From positions 1 through 41,721 of IMG/VR virus record IMGVR_UViG_3300015371_000084: a stretch of 41,721 nt of DNA, one strand, 5' to 3'. The notes below the pieces were generated by a model that had not been told where the DNA came from, did no database searches, and saw only the letters and a list, made by a program, of their open reading frames with translations. A program made the position numbers and the translations under genes. Positions 41,173 to 41,721 of the stretch are shown here, one piece after another. Source of the stretch: a virus. Every line of letters starts with the position of its first letter. The stretch's first letter is position 1.

Positions 41173-41721
41173 TCGCTGCACTCGCTACTCACTCGCTGCA
41201 CGCAGCAGCAGGACGCAGCGCCGCACCCGCACGCGCCGCCGTTCGCGCGCTGCAGCGGCAGCTACGCAGCGCCGCGCAGCGCTGCTCAACGTCACGCACG
41301 CACGCGGCCACGCACGGCTGCTGATGATCACCGCACGCCTCGCGCTGCCGCTGGCGCACGAGGCTATGCCGCTGGCATTCACTGCAATGTCATTGTCATT
41401 GCGCACGCCAACGAGGCTATGCAAGTGGCATGAGCGCTTATGGCGATGTCATAGCCTCACATGCCAATGGCATCGGCGGCGGCGGACGGCTTATGGCATT
41501 GTCATAGCCTCGTTGGCGCGGGTTATGGCAATGGCATGTGAGACTATGCAACTGGCATGGGCGACTCGCCATGCCAATGGCATAGTAGGCTATGGCAATG
41601 TCATAGCCTCAAATGGGTGTATGGCAATGGCATATGAGACTATGCCGTTGGCATGGGGGGATGCCTATGACAATGGCATAGGGGGGGAGGGTACAAGTCT
41701 AAATGTTGCGACGCGGGAAAC
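41162..41721 (+). CDS. Open frame to the window edge, perhaps not coding
   Basis: From ATG 41162 (inside the HNH gene's last codons) one frame has no stop to the window edge. It begins MLSNRCTRYSLAARSSRTQR, Arg/Ala-rich with no family resemblance, and then crosses the repeat array. The array's sites lie in all three reading frames relative to this ORF, so the repeats were shaped at the DNA level. I list it because it could be the start of a real gene, but non-coding DNA is more likely. Confidence 0.2.
   Translation, partial: MLSNRCTRYSLAARSSRTQRRTRTRRRSRAAAAATQRRAALLNVTHARGHARLLMITARLALPLAHEAMPLAFTAMSLSLRTPTRLCKWHERLWRCHSLTCQWHRRRRTAYGIVIASLARVMAMACETMQLAWATRHANGIVGYGNVIASNGCMAMAYETMPLAWGDAYDNGIGGEGTSLNVATRE
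41365..41680. repeat. Array of about 12 dyad-symmetric 14-15 bp sites
   Basis: The sites match TATGnCnnTGnCAT(A), each an inverted repeat of half-site TATGnC/GnCATA. Starts are about 41365, 41418, 41439, 41460, 41492, 41524, 41545, 41570, 41591, 41620, 41641 and 41666. Gaps of 21 bp (five times), 32 bp (twice) and 53 bp are 2, 3 and 5 helical turns, so many sites face one side of the DNA; gaps of 25 and 29 bp are exceptions. Several copies extend outward as GAGGCTATG or CATAGCCTC. This looks like iterons for an initiator, a partition protein or a packaging protein; no such protein was identified here. Confidence 0.8.

Follow-up and report, generated by a model that had tools for sequence, protein, structure and literature searches.

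A 13-site dyad array next to a predicted HNH-type cos end in a phage contig

The right end of the contig

The window, by which we mean the whole stretch of DNA that we analyzed, is an entire IMG/VR record (IMGVR_UViG_3300015371_000084; 41,721 bp) and is classed as linear. Close to its right end lie a gene for an HNH endonuclease, an array of short inverted repeats (dyads), a run of G, and what appears to be the duplex end at a cos cut:

40789..41172, + strand: HNH endonuclease gene (127 aa), from the family that adjoins cos/terminase (PF01844, 35.5 bits, cut-off 21.4)
41365..41379, + strand: dyad site 1, TATGCCGCTGGCATT
41386..41400, + strand: dyad site 2, AATGTCATTGTCATT
41418..41432, + strand: dyad site 3, TATGCAAGTGGCATG
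41439..41453, + strand: dyad site 4, TATGGCGATGTCATA
41460..41474, + strand: dyad site 5, CATGCCAATGGCATC
41492..41506, + strand: dyad site 6, TATGGCATTGTCATA
41524..41538, + strand: dyad site 7, TATGGCAATGGCATG; opens a 62-nt unit that recurs at 41620 with 82% identity
41545..41559, + strand: dyad site 8, TATGCAACTGGCATG
41570..41584, + strand: dyad site 9, CATGCCAATGGCATA; off the phase of sites 1-8
41591..41605, + strand: dyad site 10, TATGGCAATGTCATA
41620..41634, + strand: dyad site 11, TATGGCAATGGCATA; phase regained
41641..41655, + strand: dyad site 12, TATGCCGTTGGCATG
41666..41680, + strand: dyad site 13, TATGACAATGGCATA; abuts the G-run
41681..41691, + strand: putative cos G-run, GGGGGGGAGGG, the only 11-mer in the window with at least 10 G on the + strand
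41695..41698, + strand: AAGT of the putative cos core (AAAAGTCT-like in relatives)
41716..41721, + strand: GGAAAC, the predicted duplex end at the cos cut and the end of the contig (in VarioGold, GGAAAC is followed across the cut by CGATCGGTTC)

The HNH gene is the last of a set of rightward genes (37609-41172). The leftward genes are a replication set: a DnaB-like helicase, a second helicase, a primase, a DNA polymerase, a clamp loader, a RecA/UvsX-like protein, SbcC/D-like proteins, and a single-strand binding protein. There is probably a sliding-clamp gene as well, which we named by its place beside the polymerase and by its similarity to the beta subunits of ZHS and SSP002. The nearest named relatives of the polymerase are Edwardsiella phage ZHS and Vibrio phages of the SSP002 kind. 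We found no structural or terminase genes among the window proteins that were scanned. In ZHS, the gene order is structural genes (+), replication genes (-), early genes (+), and then a frame that runs off the end of the record, which we took to be TerS; TerL is at the start of the record. Because the window seems to fit the replication and early part of this map, we expect that terS and terL would lie beyond position 41721. The relatives that we identified by their replication genes (L009, G001, G002, G003, ZHS, and SSP002) mostly have different packaging ends, and we used them for the genome map only; the array is absent from all six.

Between the + strand gene at 36747-37484, which belongs to no known family and has no PHROG match, and the rightward operon, there is a perfect 12-bp inverted repeat (TATAATCAACTT-6-AAGTTGATTATA, at 37501-37530). 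Two tandem DNA methyltransferase genes (15867-17111 and 17102-18238) both belong to phrog_67 and are probably a duplication. One leftward block encodes a VWA/CoxE-like protein (800-2320) and an AAA-type ATPase (11365-12459; phrog_1297), a pairing that presumably resembles MoxR-CoxE chaperone systems. A single frame at 39236-40462 fuses glycosyltransferase family 2 and methyltransferase domains. Also, a 4.6-kb contig from metagenome 3300000440 (L008) includes the C-terminal part of the polymerase with 100% identity, so a near-identical phage may be present in another record.

Thirteen dyads, many of them on one face of the helix

The array occupies 41365-41680 and has 13 copies of a 15-bp dyad with the consensus ATGN(C/A)RNTGKCAT. 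The original prediction, which came from the letters of the window, described about 12 copies of TATGnC..GnCATA. The array is real and the core of that consensus holds up, but we count 13 sites, and the outer bases are less well kept (T1 in 10 of 13 sites and A15 in 6 of 13). Eight positions are invariant in all 13 (A2 T3 G4 ... T9 G10. C12 A13 T14), and position 6 is C in 11 sites and A in 2. The pattern ATGN(C/A)NNTGNCAT matches 13 times within the array versus twice in the remaining 41.3 kb (at 12370 and 32154, both within genes). Across 2,000 dinucleotide shuffles of the array stretch, this pattern had a mean of 0.05 matches and a maximum of 2, and 50 shuffles of the whole window gave a mean of 0.3 and a maximum of 2. 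A looser dyad pattern with 2 mismatches is less striking (16 matches in the window, whereas 100 shuffles averaged 7.8 and reached 16). The better-kept half, TGKCAT, is on the same side in all 13 sites, so the array may be directional; common descent of the sites is an alternative source of the same asymmetry. We also noticed, by eye, a decayed 14th site at about 41344 (GCTGCCGCTGGCGCA), which is left out of the count.

It had been claimed that the gaps between sites are mostly 21, 32, or 53 bp. Nine of the 12 gaps between neighbors are indeed 21 bp (six) or 32 bp (three), but 53 is just 21 + 32 and is not a gap between neighbors; the other gaps are 25 bp (two) and 29 bp (one). The accompanying claim that many sites share one face of the helix is borne out: at 10.6 bp per turn, sites 1-8 have a resultant of 1.00. 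By arithmetic from the start positions, sites 11 and 12 return to the phase of sites 1-8 (25 + 29 bp is about 5 turns), while sites 9, 10, and 13 are off the main face. The overall coherence that we computed was matched in 0.3% of trials with random gaps of 17-36 bp.

Could this be a neutral or selfish short repeat that spread in an untranslated stretch, with no protein bound to it? The array does contain a recent-looking duplication (41524-41585 and 41620-41681, 82% identity), and no relative has as many copies. But 8 positions are constant in 13 of 13 sites while the spacers, the center, and position 5 vary, the phasing exceeds chance, and, as described below, some relatives have similar dyads at the same place. 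We consider a neutral repeat to be very improbable.

Nor does the array appear to be read as protein or as RNA. An open + strand frame (41162-41719, open at its 3' end) spans the array, but the sites are distributed over all three frames, so we rejected a protein-coding repeat. The array part of this frame has no codon signal (the G+C content at the three codon positions is 0.56, 0.50, and 0.55), in agreement with the earlier view that the array acts at the level of DNA. An RNA element is unlikely because positions 5 and 11 of the sites often fail to pair (for example, in TATGGCAATGGCATA). The Rfam matches on the array are to microRNA families, with scores far under the gathering thresholds, and we rejected them as a consequence of the repeats.

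Searches for similar arrays

Pattern scans found nothing like the window's array in IMG/VR or GTDB. A three-site pattern had 3 matches in IMG/VR, all of which are repeats with a fixed unit of 30 or 33 bp. A two-site pattern had 16 matches, of which 3 are the three-site loci; when we scanned the other 13 loci with the site matrix, at least three sites were found in L027 only, and this is a coding repeat (L021, L025, and L027 were inspected by sequence). In GTDB, the three-site pattern had 15 matches, and judging from their spacing, nearly all of these are regular tandem repeats. The sole irregular non-coding case that we noticed among them is L033, from a Methylotenera MAG (L033 and L035 were inspected by sequence). 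Here, three perfect TATGACA(A/T)TGTCATA dyads, 37 and 35 bp apart (L033:4499-4585), lie in an AT-rich intergenic stretch after lysC; their consensus is that of the window's array, and we did not notice an HNH gene or a G-run nearby. A pattern that combines a G-run, a dyad, and AAGTC had one match in IMG/VR, within a long coding frame. BLAST of the array against phages and plasmids gave only pieces of 26-47 bp, with E values of 0.1-0.4. The original prediction suggested looking for such arrays in related phages, and there too we found none, only zero to about three dyads at cos sites.

A predicted cos cut at the last base

The window's HNH protein matches PHROG HNH families and has the conserved DHI...N...H motif. 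A tblastn search with this protein found 336 phage records, and we inspected the neighborhood of the gene in 10 of the 20 relatives listed. In all 10, the gene is either just 5' of terminase genes or at the end of the genome or record, as would be expected from the earlier proposal that the neighbor of the array is a terminase-associated HNH gene. Terminase genes follow on the same strand in 8 of the 10 (Shpa, Alize, KS9, phiXacJX1, Vaitephage, OS31, PACL phage, and ST13-OXA48phi12.2). In VarioGold, the HNH gene is followed by the annotated right cohesive end, and in VW-6S, it is at the end of the record. Further relatives from the 20 listed have the gene at the end of the record (EPP-1 and HK542) or beside terS (IME307). 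It is also at the end of the record in HK97 and D3, which we added as cos phages.

A G-run is common downstream of these genes. Among 151 IMG/VR HNH loci with at least 700 bp of downstream sequence, 113 have an 11-mer with at least 9 G within 700 bp 3' of HNH, versus 5 of 151 for a control stretch of 850 bp upstream; 23 of the 151 have a C-run. The distance from the start of the G-run to the end of the record is 46-56 bp in HK97, D3, VW-6S, EPP-1, and VarioGold, where the value for VarioGold includes a 10-nt 3' overhang. According to the available parts of PMC9658991, the ends of VarioGold were determined by PhageTerm, and the overhang is CGATCGGTTC. The order in VarioGold is a G-run, 40 bp, GGAAAC, and then the overhang. 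In the window, the order is a G-run at 41681, ACAAGTCT, ...GGGAAAC, and then the end of the contig, with 41 bp from the start of the G-run to the end.

We defined a composite cos motif as a G-run that is 36-47 nt before the end of GGAAAC. This motif is found within 700 bp downstream in 29 of 160 HNH loci and does not occur in 659 kb elsewhere in those loci. It occurs once in the window, ending on the last base, 41721. In 100 shuffles of the window there were 6 matches, none of them with AAGT, and there is one further match, again without AAGT, in G002. A profile HMM of 27 cos cores also has its best match in the window at the window's end, with the last model position on the last base, but this match is not significant alone (E = 2.3, and the best of 40 shuffles had higher bits).

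Because the layout of G-run, 40 bp, and GGAAAC is that of VarioGold, and because the composite motif occurs once and on the last base, we are confident, as far as the sequence can tell us, that the right end of the contig would be the cut of an HNH-type cos site. The window has an HNH gene of the terminase-associated kind, immediately 5' and in the same orientation; a + strand G-run that is 41 nt before the predicted duplex end, as compared to 36-47 for the family; and GGAAAC, as in the VarioGold subtype. If virion DNA lost its 3' overhang during library preparation, the resulting contig would end exactly at 41721. More broadly, a G-run and then GGAAAC at the end of a contig is a practical sign of a true genome end in metagenomes.

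The original prediction offered three roles for the array: a packaging (pac) site, an iteron-like replication site, or a parS-like partition site. Packaging is the best supported of these. The evidence points to a fixed cohesive (cos) end at the last base, which the original prediction did not notice and which argues against a pac site.

Dyads at other HNH-type cos sites

Of 97 non-redundant loci, 33 have an odd-centered dyad (at least 7 of 8 pairs) in the 100 bp that precede the G-run. Dinucleotide shuffles of the 97 loci give a mean of 6.3 and a maximum of 14, and the controls have such dyads in 3 of 81 cases upstream of HNH and 3 of 81 downstream. Even-centered dyads are not enriched (8 of 97). 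For this test, the 38 of 151 loci with no 9-of-11 G-run were left out, and the G-run is a crude anchor: several VarioGold-like loci have a second G-run past the cut, and Alize has an earlier one, and the counts keep both.

Other cos sites have no dyad, one, two, or at most about three, and usually one. We distinguished two types, A (GCACGnCAnTGnCGTGC, 32 loci) and B (ATGAGAnTnATTCTCAT, 15 loci), out of 132 loci, a count that includes redundancy and the window itself; a dyad of either type occurs in 31 of 2,640 shuffled stretches. The centers of type A dyads are 12-17 or 45-46 bp from the G-run (one is at 38). Where the type patterns find a pair, the dyads are 32 bp apart in L097, L098, and PACL, 39 bp in L239, and 60 bp in ST13, which may have a third dyad, judging by eye. 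In the general dyad scan, the pairs in HK97 and HK542 are 31 bp apart. In the 100 bp before the G-run of L135, L148, and L158, there is a TGCACC-N5-GGTGCA-like dyad between an ATGAGA-type dyad and the G-run.

The half-sites of the window (TGnCATA) and of type A (TGnCGTGC) agree at 5 of the 6 positions adjacent to the center, including the degenerate third, and by column permutation, the similarity to the window has p = 0.006 for type A and p = 0.64 for type B. The original claim that no named phage site has the window's consensus holds in our scans, but the related GCACGnCAnTGnCGTGC is at the same place in Pseudomonas phages. The center of site 13 is 8 bp from the G-run (that is, within about 60 bp), and in most relatives this distance is 11-16 bp. 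The cos-flanking dyads are optional: in 20 loci the HNH match stops 30 bp or less from the G-run, and only 2 of these carry a dyad; many of these 20 loci are VarioGold-like, and the VarioGold-like cos core is the closest to that of the window. Judging from these comparisons, the window's array is best seen as a putative 13-fold version of the cos-flanking element. HNH-type cos sites are already known, and what is new is one with a 13-site array. Our searches of the open-access literature found no description of dyads upstream of HNH-type cos sites, including in the available parts of PMC9410871, PMC11331095, PMC6739421, PMC9658991, PMC7556043, and PMC7617512.

Among individual phages, HK97 (HNH protein gp74, 10-nt 3' overhang) has an HNH gene, a G-run about 51 bp before the end of the record, and then the cut, with two odd-centered dyads 31 bp apart and 5' of the G-run, centered near 39635 and 39666 of NC_002167. 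HK97 differs from the window in having 2 dyads rather than 13 and in their sequence, which is ATGAGA-type. VarioGold, a Variovorax phage, shares the G-run, 40 bp, and GGAAAC at the duplex end, and an imperfect dyad (CCATGCCGAGCATGG) runs into its G-run, but it lacks an array, and its HNH stop codon precedes the right end of the record by 141 bp, as compared to 549 bp in the window. The temperate Pseudomonas phage Alize and its relatives have GCACGnCAnTGnCGTGC dyads just 5' of the G-run, 32 bp apart if paired, and share the half-site TGnC(A/G)T with the window; unlike the window, they have one or two copies, other outer bases, and a cos core of CTAGACCGCC instead of GGAAAC.

Repeated protein-binding sites also flank the cut in the cos of lambda (cosQ, cosN, and cosB). 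According to the available parts of PMC6739421 and PMC9410871, however, TerS binds the R sites of lambda, which belong to cosB on the terS side, and the overhangs are 5'; the window's array is on the HNH side of the predicted cut, which corresponds to cosQ. Lambda's upstream cosQ is required for termination, as stated in the portion of PMC7617512 that is available.

A proposed role in packaging

We think it somewhat probable (roughly 60%) that the window's array is an expanded cos-flanking dyad array on the HNH (cosQ-like) side, bound by a dimeric protein that aids packaging. In this view, a linear virion genome, cut at a cos of the HNH (HK97-like) type, would have its right end where the window stops, and the 13 dyads would be an expansion of the dyad that elsewhere occurs once to about three times immediately 5' of the G-run. 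What our computations show directly is the array, its phasing, the cos-like end, and the enrichment of dyads at the corresponding place in relatives; the bound protein and its part in packaging are proposals. We infer that a dimeric DNA-binding protein would fill the array, mainly on one face of the helix, and that the resulting nucleoprotein structure would be built upstream of the cut, on the cosQ-like side that holds the HNH gene. This structure might mark the cos of each genome unit in a concatemer, and the bound array might help the terminase/HNH complex to stop and cut there. As in HK97, the small terminase would have its site across the cut, past the end of the contig. Several observations count against this explanation. 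No other cos site that we saw has more than about three dyads, so the 13 copies need an explanation of their own. G001, which is the closest relative by its replication genes, has no HNH gene, no G-run next to its terminase, and no array. The optional nature of the dyads, the unusual distance of site 13 from the G-run, the non-significant HMM match, the absence of terminase genes from the contig, and the loose link between dyad type and packaging proteins (see below) also weigh against it.

Dyads of this size might instead be operators. A regulator of transcription from the phage or the host could bind them and control transcription through cos into the late (terminase, head) operon, which starts there, and this would account for the proximity to cos. 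Odd-centered dyads of 15 bp are the usual size for the operators of dimeric regulators; yet 13 operators would be many, and there is no sigma-70-like promoter in 40700-41721. In L025, a gene that we judged by eye to encode a helix-turn-helix protein is preceded by a similar TATGTC...GACATA arrangement. Also, type B dyads (ATGAGAnTnATTCTCAT) presumably resemble Fur boxes, and we take the TGCACC-N5-GGTGCA dyads in L135, L148, and L158 to resemble NtrC sites. Dyad type is not tied to HNH, TerS, or TerL (see below), which also fits with operators. On the other hand, the dyads are at fixed distances from the cos G-run, HK97 has no copy of its dyad outside cos, even with up to 3 mismatches allowed, and the two good copies of the Alize dyad are only at cos as well (a copy with 2 mismatches is elsewhere, at 10577). 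Overall, an array of operators seems unlikely to us.

We also considered a partition or replication site (parS- or iteron-like) in a phage that is maintained as a plasmid or whose replication starts near its end. Centromere-like and iteron sites typically consist of dyads in a phased array. ParB-like genes are present in the corresponding early block of two distant relatives, ZHS and SSP002, but the 41.7-kb window has no match to ParB_N; as the genome is partial, ParB could be encoded elsewhere. As for replication, no initiator gene adjoins the array (there is no initiator family in 37609-41172), the closest gene with a recognizable part in replication, which encodes the DnaB-like helicase (34517-36013), is about 5 kb from the array, and in 1-kb steps, there is no clear switch of GC skew at the array. 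The iteron option of the original prediction thus fares poorly. Furthermore, the same kind of dyad is at cos in HK97 and Alize. We view a partition or replication site as quite unlikely.

What might read the dyads

Dyad type tracks the similarity of the packaging proteins only in part. Between nearest neighbors, the dyad type agrees in 38 of 47 cases for HNH, 30 of 39 for TerS, and 27 of 40 for TerL (this comparison includes L116, whose HNH was taken in the wrong reading frame). HNH is the best predictor of dyad type, and none of the three is decisive. For example, L117 and L123 have HNH, TerS, and TerL proteins that are 91%, 90%, and 97% identical, and their dyad types differ. The N-terminal stretch of TerS is identical across dyad types (L117 and L121). 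Because the dyads of L117 and L123 differ despite 90-97% identity, the comparison speaks for a dyad-reading factor outside the packaging module or for very few specificity residues in HNH. And because dyad type does not follow the packaging proteins, the role of the dyads may not be in packaging.

The array spans about -41 to -357 relative to the predicted cut. In HK97, the stretch recognized by the small terminase, +15 to +29, is past the cut (PMC11331095, in the parts available). HK97 is a model for cos packaging, and in those parts of the literature, the only sequence recognition described is that of the small-terminase site, which is downstream of the cut. The conserved upstream dyad, the 13-copy extreme, and the module swaps make it possible to test for a second DNA-binding factor in choosing or ending packaging. 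More tentatively, and with some doubt, we suggest that HNH-type cos sites might carry a new modular element: odd-centered dyads that precede the G-run at fixed helical distances, which would be read by a dimeric factor other than HNH, TerS, or TerL and which would form a 13-site scaffold at the end of the window phage's genome. If this were true, then packaging would depend on an additional DNA-binding protein, possibly a host regulator. We also note that when L117:2700-3250 is compared to L123:2700-3250, the interval before the cos G-run is wholly different, like a swappable module.
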